A DNA stretch of 64,000 nucleotides, taken from assembly GCA_030427255.1 (NCBI GenBank), contig JAUHWY010000006.1:83848-147847 (forward strand). Direction: 5' to 3'. Positions 6,116-63,560 of this stretch are shown piece by piece (position 1 is the first letter of the stretch; each line of letters starts with the position of its first letter). The DNA is from Bacteroidia bacterium (GTDB taxonomy: Bacteria > Bacteroidota > Bacteroidia > CAIKAF01). Both the position numbers and the translations under genes were made by a program. Below the pieces are notes generated by a model, which was not told where the DNA came from, did not search any database, and worked only from the letters and a program-made list of their open reading frames with translations.

Positions 6116-6420
6116 CTTTTTGGGGCCTCGCCCATAGCTAAATCATGTTCCAGAGCCGGCCCTAGCTCCGGCCTCCCTCGCCCATGCGTGGCGGCAAATT
6201 GAGTTTGTTAACGGGAGGCCTTTTCAAGTTTTAAACCCTAACCAAAGCGTCAGTGCAAAATGCTTAAGATTTGACCGTAAGGCAAAGGTGCGGCCCGAAT
6301 AGCCTTCCGTTAACAAACTCAAGGCCCTCCGGGGGTTCCGCCTAGCTCCACCTCCTCGGGCACTTGCCGCCAAACGCATGGGCTTCGGGCGGGCCTCCAC
6401 TTGGCCGGGGGCCCATCCTT
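6116..6420. repeat. Dispersed GC-rich intergenic repeat, copy A (with insertion)
   Basis: One of about eight related intergenic elements in this window. It starts with T-rich TTTTTGGGGCC, ends with GGCCGGGGGCCC and contains the family core GGGGGTTCCGCctAGCTcCACCTCCTC (6331-6357). It has no coding potential that can be supported. Copy A differs from the others in carrying a 124-bp palindromic segment (6199-6322). From 6421 to about 6600 nothing is recognised. Confidence 0.75.
6199..6322. repeat. 124-bp nested element with perfect 16-bp inverted ends
   Basis: TTGAGTTTGTTAACGG at 6199-6214 is an exact reverse complement of 6307-6322. The interior is more AT-rich than the surrounding repeat. Outside it, GCCCATGCGTGGCGGCAA (6180-6197) pairs with TTGCCGCCAAACGCATGGGC (6364-6383). 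No clear target duplication flanks the inner ends. It could be a small non-autonomous element inserted in repeat copy A or a cruciform/RNA structure. Confidence 0.6.
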
Positions 6421-12461: not shown

Positions 12462-12636
12462 GCCCCCCGGCCAAGGTAGGGCCGCACGAAAACAAAAGGA
12501 GGCTGCCCTTAGGCGAGGAGGTGTAGCTTTGCGGAACCACCGCAGCCTTAGAGCAGCCTGCTTTTGACGAGTGCGACCGAACGCAAGGCCGGATAGAGTA
12601 AAAAAACGGAACACGGAGCAGGGCCCCAAAAAAAAA
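12462..12636. repeat. Dispersed GC-rich intergenic repeat, copy B
   Basis: Minus-oriented relative to copies A and C: begins GCCCCCCGGCC, contains GAGGAGGTGTAGCTTTGCGGAACCACC (reverse complement of the family core) and ends GGGCCCC followed by a nine-base A run. It also has an AGGCTGC/GCAGCCT inverted repeat around the core. It fills most of the amidohydrolase-frr interval. Confidence 0.75.
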
Positions 12637-12693
12637 GACGGGTACGCCCCGTCTTTAGCTATCCATGGGAGACGGGAGGCATCCCGTCTTTAC
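12637..12693. repeat. Two short GACGGG palindromes
   Basis: GACGGGTACGCCCCGTC (12637-12653) and GACGGGAGGCATCCCGTCTTTAC (12671-12693). The second is the reverse complement of the hairpin repeated in tandem at 63030-63345. It lies 12 bases past the frr stop, so it could end frr transcripts, although it has no T run. Confidence 0.7.
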
Positions 12694-12705
12694 TACCTTA
12701 TGCCT

Positions 12706-13263
12706 CTAAACCTTCATAATTTCCTTTTCCTTAATGGCGCAGAGCTCATCCACCTTTTTGGTGAAGCTATCGATAATTTGTTGGATTTCTGCTTCGGCAT
12801 CTTTGGCCAGGTCTTCGGCAAGGCCTTCTTTCTGAAGCTTCTTTACGGCCTCGTTGGCGTCGCGGCGGGCGTTGCGGAGGCTCACTTTGGCATGTTCTCC
12901 TTCGGCTTTGGCCAGCTTTACCATTTCTTTGCGGCGCTCTTCGGTTAAGGGCGGCACGTTGATGCGGATCATTTCGCCGTCGTTTTGAGGGTTCAATCCC
13001 AAATTGGCTTGAATGATGGCCTTTTCAATGTCAGGAATGATGTTTTTTTCCCAAGGTTGCACGGATATGGTGCGCGCATCCGGGGTGTTGACCGAAGCCA
13101 CCTGCTGTATGGGCGTAGGCGTGCCGTAATAAGGCACCATTACCGAATCCAGCATGGCAGGACTGGCTTTGCCAGTGCGTATTTTAAGCAGTTCACTTTC
13201 TAAATGGTCAATGGCCTTGGACATGGCACTTTTGCAAGTGGATAGAACAGCGTCGGTACTCAT
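12706..13263 (-). CDS. frr: Ribosome recycling factor
   Basis: RRF splits the post-termination 70S ribosome together with EF-G. The 185-residue length is exactly typical. Visible family blocks are HLESELLKIRTGKASP near the N-terminus, YYGTPTPIQQVASV, DARTISVQPWEKNIIPDIEKAI, GEMIRINVPPLTEERRKEMVKL and the C-terminal long-helix region. In many bacteria frr follows pyrH; here no pyrH is seen upstream and a small membrane-protein gene lies there. A TATTTTTA box about 30 bases before the ATG may be its promoter. Confidence 0.97.
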   Translation of the reverse strand: MSTDAVLSTCKSAMSKAIDHLESELLKIRTGKASPAMLDSVMVPYYGTPTPIQQVASVNTPDARTISVQPWEKNIIPDIEKAIIQANLGLNPQNDGEMIRINVPPLTEERRKEMVKLAKAEGEHAKVSLRNARRDANEAVKKLQKEGLAEDLAKDAEAEIQQIIDSFTKKVDELCAIKEKEIMKV

Positions 13264-14979: not shown

Positions 14980-14986
14980 AGATTAG

Positions 14987-15170
14987 GTTTTTTGGGCCCC
15001 GGTTCCAAAAGACGTTTTTGTATGCTAACCGGCCCCGGTTCCGGTCTCCTTTGGCCCCGGGTGGGCTCAGGGCGGTGCGGGGGTTCCGCAAAGCTACACC
15101 TCCTCCCTGCCCTTTGCCCAAACCCGGCGCCTGCAGGCGGCCCTACTCCGGCCGGGGGGCGATTCTTTGG
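14987..15170. repeat. Dispersed GC-rich intergenic repeat, copy C
   Basis: Begins TTTTTTGGGCCCCGGTTCC, contains the core CGGGGGTTCCGCAAAGCTACACCTCCTCC (about 15078-15106) and ends GGCCGGGGGGCGATTCTTTGG. It is followed by G-rich imperfect repeats (GGGCCTGGGCGCGGGCC) up to the metF promoter. ORF-track entries here are repeat artefacts. Confidence 0.8.
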
Positions 15171-28852: not shown

Positions 28853-29182
28853 GTTTTTTTTTCGGGTGGTGGATTTTTGGGGGCCTTATCCGGCTCTCCG
28901 CTTTAGCTGTCTCAGGAAAGCTAAGTGGGGCAAACCTTTGGCGGGGCTTGCTAAAGCTCCGCCCGCCTCAGGCGGCCCCACTAAGCTTTCCTTTCGTCAG
29001 GCTATCGCGTCCATCCGGGGCCCAAATCATCTTCCAAAAAAGCATCTCTTCACGGAGCACTGCGCCCCTGACCGCACCGATAGCTGTAGGGTGCAGCCAT
29101 GGAGCAATTCCGGCACCGAAGCGGCCCCGATTCTTCGGGGACCCTGCAGGGCCTGGAATTGCCCATGGGTGGACCCTACACT
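28853..29182. repeat. GC-rich intergenic repeat, divergent copy D, with two large hairpins
   Basis: It shares the T-run/GGGGGCC and CCGGGGCCC ends with the other copies but not their core. AGGAAAGCTAAGTGGGGC (28914-28931) pairs with 28975-28992, with an inner GCGGGGCTT/AAGCTCCGC helix. A second imperfect palindrome, GTAGGGTGCAGCCATGG.. (29086-29114) with ..CCATGGGTGGACCCTAC (29151-29179), lies before the next gene. Confidence 0.6.
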
Positions 29183-29223
29183 AAAGGTAAGGGCAGGAAA
29201 AGGCGCCCAAAACCAAATTTTGC

Positions 29224-32807: not shown

Positions 32808-34016
32808 TTAATTATTGTTGGCAAAACGGGTAATCCACCCTTTAGCCGCCAAACGTTCGGTAGTTTCTTGTCCGAAAGTCTTTTTACCGGCCGCCCAAGT
32901 ATCGTAGGCCTCTCCGTCTATAACACGAATTGGTAGCATCATGTTAAAGTGGGTAGCGCCGCAGATGTTGTTGCAATACAGGCGGTATTCGAAATCCGGA
33001 TCGTTGAGTTTCTCCTTCATTTCCTCAGAGGTAATGATGGGCGTGAAGTTAAAGTAGGTTTCTGTGCCGGGTACACAGTACATGTGCACACGGAAATGTG
33101 GCATGTATGCGCTATGGATTACATCTTGAGAGCGCATGGTAAGTTTGATGGGACGATTTACCGGCAAATAAATGGTATCGCGAACAATAACATCGTCATA
33201 GGTAGAAGCAAAAGTCTCTGCTCCGGTTTCGTATTCATATCGGAAACCAGCGATGGTTCGGATCTGGTGAATGATTCTTCTCAGCCTTGTTTTCTCCTTA
33301 CCTAGTTTTTCCTCAGGCAAGAATCCGTTTACAATGCTGGAATCGGTTACCGTGGAGTCTCTGCGCAACAAAGTCATTTGTTCCATGATGGTTTCAGCCG
33401 ACAACAGGCCAAGGATATTGTCGTTGTTGATCATGGTATAATTTGCTTTTCCAAGAGCATTGTCTGCCCCGGAATAGCGGGCGGTCCAATCGAACTGACG
33501 TGCGTAAAGCTCAAGATTGATAGCGCCTTCGTCGTCGTCGGTAATATGACTCCACACGATTAAACCTTTTAGCACCAACACAGCCATAACAACGGCAGGC
33601 ACTAAGGTCCAAATCAGCTCCAAGTTGTTGTTGTGGGCATAGTGTGTAGCTCTGCGGGCTTTGTTGTAGCGGTATTTCCAGCTAAACCAAATAAGCAGCA
33701 CCTGAGTAATTACAAAAGCGATGCTGATTACAATAAAGTTCAAGTTCAACAGGCTATCTACCTCTTCGCCATGGGCGGAAGCAGCTTGAGGAACGAACTG
33801 GTCGTTGTAATACTTAACGGTGAGGTATACGAACATCCCCAACAGCCCTACCAAATAGAGCAGCCAAATAAAGGCATTCAGTTGGTTGTCGGATTCTGAG
33901 ACCTCATGCGCCTTTTGACCACGCAGGGTCGCAGCTGCTTGAATAACATTAAGTAGTCTTGCAGCCGTTAGGACTGTAAGTACAATGAGGGCAATAAGTG
34001 CAATATTCATCAACAT
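32808..34016 (-). CDS. coxB: Cytochrome c oxidase subunit II
   Basis: Subunit II carries the CuA site that takes electrons from cytochrome c or directly from ACIII. Three or four hydrophobic segments in the N-terminal 170 residues are more than the usual two and form an N-terminal extension. The cupredoxin domain has HSAYMPHFRVHMYCVPG and CNNICGATHFNM. The CuA loop reads C-N-N-I-C, with Asn where most families have Glu. There is no fused cytochrome c domain. The gene is followed by coxA. Confidence 0.94.
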   Translation of the reverse strand: MLMNIALIALIVLTVLTAARLLNVIQAAATLRGQKAHEVSESDNQLNAFIWLLYLVGLLGMFVYLTVKYYNDQFVPQAASAHGEEVDSLLNLNFIVISIAFVITQVLLIWFSWKYRYNKARRATHYAHNNNLELIWTLVPAVVMAVLVLKGLIVWSHITDDDEGAINLELYARQFDWTARYSGADNALGKANYTMINNDNILGLLSAETIMEQMTLLRRDSTVTDSSIVNGFLPEEKLGKEKTRLRRIIHQIRTIAGFRYEYETGAETFASTYDDVIVRDTIYLPVNRPIKLTMRSQDVIHSAYMPHFRVHMYCVPGTETYFNFTPIITSEEMKEKLNDPDFEYRLYCNNICGATHFNMMLPIRVIDGEAYDTWAAGKKTFGQETTERLAAKGWITRFANNN

Positions 34017-42828: not shown

Positions 42829-42990
42829 TTTTTTTTGGGCAAGGGACCGGCACGGATACCCAGCCTCCGGAAAAAGCTACAAAGGCGCAAAAAGCGGTGT
42901 GGAGCTTGCGGAACGCCCGCTTTAGGCTTGCCTTTGTGCTTTTTTCGGAGGCTGCGTAGCAGGGAGGGCCCGACCCTTTAGGGTTGCCCC
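42829..42990. repeat. GC-rich intergenic repeat, copy E, with a 25-bp stem
   Basis: It begins TTTTTTTTGGGC and ends GGTTGCCCCCAAGCC; the family core is present in reverse as GTGTGGAGCTTGCGGAAC. CAGCCTCCGGAAAAAGCTACAAAGGC (42861-42886) pairs with GCCTTTGTGCTTTTTTCGGAGGCTG (about 42929-42953) with few mismatches. It lies between the act operon promoter and the S46 peptidase gene. Confidence 0.7.
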
Positions 42991-43015
42991 CAAGCCAAAA
43001 TTAACTTAGGCTGCT

Positions 43016-48371: not shown

Positions 48372-48422
48372 GCCCAGCTTTGAACGTATAGAACACCATT
48401 TTCTTAAAGCAATGGGTCTTGG

Positions 48423-48600
48423 TTTTTTGGGCCCCGGTTCCAAAAAAGTGCATTACTCCGCATCCTGCCCCTGCTTCGGTCATGGCCGGCTGGGGCCGGC
48501 CGCAGCGGGGCTGCCGGGTGCTTCCGTTGGTCGCAGCCTCGCCCACGCTGCGGCAAGGCCCCAACCAACCATGGCCCTCCGCCGGGCAGGGGGGCCTTCC
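48423..48600. repeat. GC-rich intergenic repeat, copy F
   Basis: Begins TTTTTTGGGCCCCGGTTCC (the same 19 bases as copy C) and ends GCCGGGCAGGGGGGCC. The core is altered to GGGTGCTTCCGTTGGTCGCAGC. GGCCGCAGCG.../...CGCTGCGGC suggests a stem. Confidence 0.7.
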
Positions 48601-59284: not shown

Positions 59285-59465
59285 TTTTTTTTGGCCCCTC
59301 ACTCTATATTTTTTAGGTTTTTATCCGGCCCCGGCTCCAGCCCCGAAGCCCGCCGGACTTGGCGCCCTAAGCTGCCGGCCGCGTTCCGCAAAGCTCCACA
59401 GCCCGGCAGCAGGGCGCCATAGCCCGCCAACCTCCGGGGGCGTCCGCCCGGCCGGGGGGCCATTC
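59285..59465. repeat. GC-rich intergenic repeat, copy G
   Basis: T-run TTTTTTTTGGCCCC start, end GGCCGGGGGGCC, core CGCGTTCCGCAAAGCTCCACAGCCCGGCAG. GGCGCCCTaaGCTGCCGG (59361-59378) pairs with CCGGCAGCAGGGCGCC (59403-59418). It is nearly identical in its core 55 bases to copy H in the opposite orientation. From 59466 to 59642 nothing else is recognised. Confidence 0.8.
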
Positions 59466-63014: not shown

Positions 63015-63345
63015 TGAATGATGAATGATGCAGTAAAGACGGGATGCCTCCCGTCTCTCAACGATGAATGATGCAGTAAAGACGGGATGCCTCCAGTCTC
63101 TCAACGATGAATGATGCAGTAAAGACGGGATGCCTCCCGTCTCTCAACGATGAATGATGCAGTAAAGACGGGATGCCTCCCGTCTCTCAACGATGAATGA
63201 TGCAGTAAAGACGAGATGCCCCGTCTCTCAACGATGAATGATGCAGTAAAGACGGGATGCCTCCCGTCTCTCATGACAAAGTAAAGACGGGATGCCCCGC
63301 TCTCAATGATGAATGATGCAGTAAAGACGGGATGCCTTCCAGTGA
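63015..63345. repeat. 43-bp tandem repeat with GACGGGA/TCCCGTC hairpins, about 8 units
   Basis: Units with consensus CGATGAATGATGCAGTAAAGACGGGATGCCTCCCGTCTCTCAA begin at 63031, 63074, 63117, 63160 and 63203 (exactly 43 apart), then 63244, about 63280 and 63319 with small deletions. Each holds the short inverted repeat GACGGGA-TGCC-TCCCGTC. It is not a CRISPR: there are no unique spacers. The ORF on the minus strand (63101-63349) is a translation of the repeat. Confidence 0.95.
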
Positions 63346-63376: not shown

Positions 63377-63549
63377 GCCCCCCGGCCAAGCGGACGCCCG
63401 CCTAAAGGCGAGGGCTTAGGCGGCCTGCTGCCGGGCTGTGGAGCTTTGCGGAACGCGCCCGGCAGCTTAGGGCGCCTAGCTCAAGACTTTAGGAGGCTGG
63501 AGCTAGGGCCGGATAGATTTAGAAAACCCCAATTGGAACCGGGGCCCAA
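63377..63549. repeat. GC-rich intergenic repeat, copy H
   Basis: Reverse-oriented: begins GCCCCCCGGCC, contains CTGTGGAGCTTTGCGGAACGCG and ends TTGGAACCGGGGCCCAAAA, the reverse complement of the copy C/F starts. Its stem sequence matches copy G almost base for base. Confidence 0.8.
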
Positions 63550-63560
63550 AACCCAAACAA

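Follow-up and report, generated by a model that had tools for sequence, protein, structure and literature searches.

A Flavo-1-like family of long intergenic hairpins in a Bacteroidia lineage

The recurrence of GC-rich repeats between the genes of this DNA raises the question of what they are and what maintains them. An initial annotation, made from the letters alone, had described eight such repeats and had left their nature open between a REP/MITE-type element and a structured RNA. The stretch analysed here, of 64,000 nucleotides and hereafter called the window, belongs to contig 15 of a genome of 3.22 Mb in 57 contigs (G000). Comparisons were made with draft genomes and MAGs, for which gene calls were crude, among them the same-genus MAG M30B58 (JAGYKD01; G004) and CAILUT01 (G001).

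Copies, copy number and architecture

All eight annotated repeats were found where they had been placed, and a ninth was added on the minus strand (Table 1). Crude ORF calls confirmed that the family copies are intergenic and occur in both orientations, with no clear orientation bias relative to the neighbouring genes (19 divergent, 13 convergent and 18 co-directional). The proposed common end, a T-run followed by GGGCCCCGGTTCC, was detected four times in the window versus 0.12 times in shuffled sequences. The other proposed end, GGCCGGGGGGC, was weak on its own, with 6 occurrences versus 2.1 and with 2 of 100 shuffles reaching as high a count. The core ascribed to most copies, GTTCCGCAAAGCTNCAC, was exact in four of the eight, nearly matched in two (6116 and 42829) and absent from the remaining two (28853 and 48423). 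When up to three mismatches were allowed, this core occurred six times in the window versus 0.59 times in shuffles, none of 100 of which reached six; one of the six matches (59989) fell outside every element copy.

Table 1. Positions of the element copies, and of one insert nested within a copy, in the window
Feature	Position	Strand	Remarks
Copy 1, subtype A	6116-6413	+	Interrupted by nested insert at ~6199-6322; core with two mismatches
Nested inverted-repeat insert, TTGAGTTTGTTAACGG ... CCGTTAACAAACTCAA	6199-6322		Outside the family; orthologous G004 copy lacks the insert
Copy 2, subtype A	12462-12635	-	Exact core at 12521-12537
Copy 3, subtype A	14986-15160	+	Exact core at 15083-15099; site is a 6-nt spacer in G005
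Copy 4, subtype B (28853 copy)	28870-29027	+	No core; sub-threshold Flavo-1 match at 28883-29026, minus strand
Copy 4b, subtype B	29058-29216	-	Missing from the initial annotation; beside the 28853 copy
Copy 5, subtype B	42833-42995	-	Core shortened by one base (GTTCCGCAAGCTCCAC)
Copy 6, subtype A ends	48421-48597	+	Coreless apex
Copy 7, subtype A	59285-59462	+	Exact core at 59383-59399
Copy 8, subtype A	63377-63555	-	Exact core at 63438-63454

A separate repeat, a minisatellite of ~43-bp units (AACGATGAATGATGCAGTAAAGACGGGATGCCTCCCGTCTCTC) with internal palindromes, was observed at 63017-63340 of the window, and related units were present at 12648-12706 and in many places in G004.

Genome-wide, the exact core occurred 44 times, and 59 times with up to two mismatches (backwards control, 0 to 2). 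The core is only one among several interchangeable apices. Profiles built from core-bearing copies detected 61 loci in 468 kb of G000 and none in the reversed sequence, a density of about 1 element per 7.7 kb. Scaling of this value gave an estimate of ~420 copies per 3.2-Mb genome, and the density in G004 was similar. With a covariance model built from the genus's own copies (R1), every one of the six species of the genus gave between 101 and at least 150 copies, 150 being the limit of scoring; four of these species (G001, G002, G003 and G005) carry the family with another apical motif. Counts with R1 were 0 to 4 for five further genera of the taxonomic family and 57 for G055, a genome from a distant family of the class. 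The ~57 long-stem elements of G055, among them the loci L240 and L271, included some with the GGCTCC..AAGTCGCC apex of G001-G005. Exact-core matches in public genomes outside G004 and G001 had, among those inspected, the look of coding sequence, of chance or of an unrelated Calothrix repeat; the last is a dispersed repeat with GTTCCGCAAAGCTCCACTCAGAATGACA on Calothrix elsteri contigs (L102, L110, L120, L132, L152 and L169), whose core match is coincidental. Neither of the findings that would have spoken against the initial annotation, a copy number below a handful or a lack of common boundaries, was made: the copies number in the hundreds, and recent duplicates have sharp ends in common.

Each element is an intergenic unit of 150 to 215 bp that is predicted to fold into a single long rod. 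With the T-tract placed at the left, the order is T-tract, G-rich basal stem, internal loop, long stem, apex and return, with the basal stem, of the GGGCGG/CCGCC type, adjoining the T-tract. The elements end in TTTTGGG(C/G) and CCGC/GGGGCC, and two end types were distinguished, type A (GGGCCCCGGTTCC ... ATCCGGCC ... GGCCGGGGGGCC) and type B (GGGGCGC or GGGGGCC ... TCCGG ... GGGGCGC). The internal loop is conserved, its top strand GCTTTC...TTCAATC being equivalent to the GAUUGAA.../...GGAAAGC of Flavo-1, and the stem above this loop is variable in sequence with pairing always kept. The small apical motif is exchangeable. Apices in G000 and G004 were GTTCCGCAAAGCTNCAC, CTTGCTGCGCGCCGCC and GGGGTCCCCCGAA..TCGGGGGCCTCC, while the apex GGCTCC(C/T)AA(A/G)GTCGCC was present in 146 to 186 copies each in G001, G002, G003 and G005 versus 5 to 7 in G000 and G004. 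An alignment of 18 copies with this last apex had double changes in 38 of 47 predicted pairs, and the letters of the apex and internal loop were invariant or almost so. At one site (C1:1306390-1306486 of G004 versus C15 70474-70488 of G000), the apical hairpin has been deleted in G000, leaving the base alone, and is kept in G004. An intrinsic terminator was considered and rejected, as the T-tract lies before the hairpin on the top strand and hence forms an A-tract after the hairpin on the other strand.

Kinship with Flavo-1

Flavo-1 RNA (Rfam RF01705) is a candidate noncoding RNA (Weinberg et al. 2010; PMC2864571) that is classed by Rfam as Gene; sRNA, and no functional study of it was found in the literature searched. 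At the gathering score, Rfam yielded no match anywhere in the window. A permissive scan gave an RF01705 match to the 28853 copy (minus strand) that scored 21.7 bits, where the cut-off is 42, with an E value of 5.1 over the whole window. The cmscan alignment of this match spans the full model (1-76) with a 90-nt insert at the long/apical stem, and the copy has the internal-loop motif that is conserved in RF01705 together with the nested stems of the model. Permissive-scan matches to eukaryotic miRNA precursors were dismissed as chance hairpin matches.

RF01705 was also searched for in 15 genomes and in 14 control genomes. Two further genera of the taxonomic family (G006 and G008) gave scores over the cut-off, while matches in G000 to G005 were sub-threshold, with best scores of 33.9 bits in G000 and 38.0 bits in G004; none of the 14 control genomes had a match. 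Of 33 canonical Flavo-1 loci, model R1 weakly matched 4 exactly where Flavo-1 lies (L253, L327, L344 and L352; E values of 0.006 to 0.02). It matched the canonical locus L338 elsewhere in the locus and matched L240 and L271 of G055 strongly. Judged by motif and predicted fold, the window family is a long-stem, GC-rich relative of Flavo-1 whose scores lie under the gathering cut-off. The name Flavo-1-like was adopted because kinship was seen, yet the formal cut-off was failed.

Selection at fixed sites and strand symmetry of the stem

Two collinear stretches of G000 and G004, ~300 kb in blocks of 79% to 94% identity, were compared, and almost all testable elements were at identical sites in the two genomes. 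In the 20 cleanest ortholog pairs, the element interior differed by 6.5%, the flanks by 16.8% and four-fold sites by 32.9%, and interior divergence was below that of the flank in 19 pairs. High-information columns, those conserved across the family, changed at 2% to 4% versus 13% to 16%. Gene conversion between copies cannot explain the low interior divergence, because the stems are unique to each copy. The stems of 28 ortholog pairs contained 23 double changes versus the 6.6 predicted for independent substitution, and 16 of these were Watson-Crick pairs versus ~2.2 by chance (one third of 6.6). Some compensatory changes could have arisen by intrastrand template switching without selection. 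These comparisons showed that the copies are under purifying selection in place, with compensatory evolution.

The strand on which pairing is maintained was examined with a wobble test: the helix of a one-strand RNA should tolerate G.U over A.C, and these roles swap on the other strand. The GT:AC ratio in covarying columns was 63:79 for 79 nonredundant copies, 82:94 for 58 B-set copies (G000 and G004) and 37:26 for 18 A-set copies. Stem changes between orthologs comprised 27 to GT and 44 to AC, and canonical Flavo-1 of other families had a ratio of 59:75. By comparison, 31 tRNAs treated alike, by columns, had a ratio of 31:3 and strict terminators one of 15:3; these were used instead of two uninformative controls, a crude one of tRNA arms taken by fixed windows (22:25) and a loose set of 638 terminator-like sites (146:123). 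The lack of an excess of G.T over A.C indicated that the helix is kept equally for both strands, and hence that a DNA structure or a two-strand RNA fits and a one-strand sRNA does not.

A one-strand noncoding RNA family with hundreds of copies, as the filing of Flavo-1 in Rfam would have it, is accordingly very improbable. The Rfam class of the related family, the strongly conserved secondary structure and internal-loop motif and a near-constant T.G pair (top strand) in two stem columns of the G001-G005 set are in its favour, but neither strand exhibited the preference for G.U over A.C seen in tRNAs and strict terminators. For the structured-RNA half of the initial annotation, kinship with a candidate structured-RNA family was retained, whereas a G.U preference in the covariation was absent.

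Strand symmetry alone does not distinguish a function in DNA from a requirement for RNA hairpins of both strands. Hairpins in transcripts of either strand could act as stabilizers of mRNA 3' or 5' ends, insulators or processing sites, and the orientation of the element would be irrelevant as different places transcribe both strands. The symmetry of the wobble test is compatible with such a role. In Flavobacterium psychrophilum, Flavo-1 matches occur sense or antisense indistinctly, in agreement with the symmetry measured here, and some lie at transcribed 5' regions, but many lie outside transcribed regions (PMC9723704). Copies of the present family had no clear preference for a gene arrangement and occurred also between divergent genes, and their T-tract lies on the opposite side of the hairpin from that of an intrinsic terminator. 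Overall, we consider RNA hairpins of either strand to be an unlikely explanation.

Spread of the copies and comparison with known systems

Duplicates (L040/L041 and L004/L029), whose 5' flanks are unrelated, agreed from TTT(T)GGGCC onwards, and near-identical paralogs agreed until just beyond GGGGGGC(C/T)ATT(C/T)T, with one pair similar for ~25 nt longer. The 14987 site measured ~340 nt in G000 and consisted of the 6-nt spacer in G005, where any target duplication would be masked by divergence, and the 12462 site was unusable as an empty site, G004 having ~2 kb of other DNA there. In the ortholog pair at C15 28859, the apex was exchanged and the stem otherwise conserved. The duplicates, the 14987 site and the C15 28859 pair indicated past gains of copies and swaps of apices. 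Turnover since the split of G000 and G004 was very low.

Three to four Y1 (RAYT) transposases were detected in each of G000 and G004 and none in the carriers G001 and G005. Y1/RAYT was rejected as the mover on the basis of this absence from two carriers. The three Y1 genes of G000 (on C44, C7 and C51; L078-L080) lie near small palindromes of their own, e.g., GCTCCTACGGAGC and CGACCTCGAAGAGGTCG, which are unrelated to the elements, and look like genuine REP/RAYT pairs apart from the hairpin family. Flavo-1-like elements adjoin two of these three loci. A MITE-like repeat with the terminal inverted repeats GAGAC(C/T)(G/A)TTGA(C/T)GCG...CGC(G/A)TCAA(C/A)(G/A)GTCTC was also observed, at 33148-33425 and 61756-61930 of C15 in G000 and inside elements L025, L036, L047 and L077. 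Some of its sites are occupied in G000 and cleanly empty in G004, and vice versa, and it has been more recently active than the hairpin family.

The discrete duplicated units with sharp 5' ends, the T-tract that borders 47% of copies on the 5' side versus a background of 5.6%, the almost empty 14987 site and the lineage-wide changes of apex (44 copies versus 0 to 1, and 5 to 7 versus 146 to 186) would all be consistent with a REPIN- or MITE-like element that is purely selfish, depends on RAYT/Y1 or another transposase for its movement and decays neutrally once inserted. However, the divergence of copies that stay in place is five times slower than that of four-fold sites, insertion differences are almost nil across the ~300 kb of collinear sequence, and G001 and G005 contain at least 150 copies each without a Y1 transposase. 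A purely selfish element is thus quite unlikely.

These analyses demonstrated hundreds of copies, conserved positions, constraint in place, compensatory change, sharp boundaries and no G.U preference. The explanation as a whole, to which we give an even chance, is that the family is a long-stem lineage of a Flavo-1 superfamily, a selected, strand-symmetric hairpin that probably acts in DNA and was spread by rare duplication. The selected structure would act mainly in DNA, as an extruded or single-stranded hairpin, and may serve between genes as a binding or topological site whose internal loop and apex are recognized by a putative protein. Its spread would have occurred long ago through rare duplications mobilized in trans. 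More tentatively, Flavo-1 and its relatives may be Bacteroidota-wide intergenic DNA hairpin sites and not RNA genes, each selected, with a dedicated DNA-structure-binding reader and modular exchange of apices. The present results move the question from the function of an RNA to which factor reads chromosomal hairpins. With hundreds of copies and two collinear genomes, this lineage is a clean comparative system for in-place selection and strand symmetry, and the approach consists of simple tests applicable to any Bacteroidota genome pair.

ERIC/IRU-type elements are, like the present family, long imperfect palindromes between genes whose mover is not known. They are presumably unrelated to this family in sequence, and they come from another phylum.

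The occurrence of palindromes between genes, hundreds per genome and in both orientations, is a trait in common with REP/BIME elements and REPINs (PMC3733652, PMC3116915). The REP/MITE half of the initial annotation held insofar as the family is dispersed, structured, transposase-free and intergenic with common boundaries. Unlike REPs and REPINs, however, the elements are 150 to 215 bp and not 20 to 40 bp, have no GTAG or CGTC tetranucleotide foot and occur in two carriers without a RAYT. REP stems often contain G.T pairs (PMC3733652).

The family differs from Flavo-1 in its longer GC-rich stem (a ~90-nt insert versus the model), T-tract edge and lineage-specific apices, and from Flavo-1 as filed in its scores under the gathering score and its covariation without wobble preference. 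With Flavo-1 it shares the internal-loop motif GAUnGAnGCGnAA... / ...AGCGGAnAGCnGGA, the rod topology and an intergenic, multicopy occurrence in Bacteroidota.
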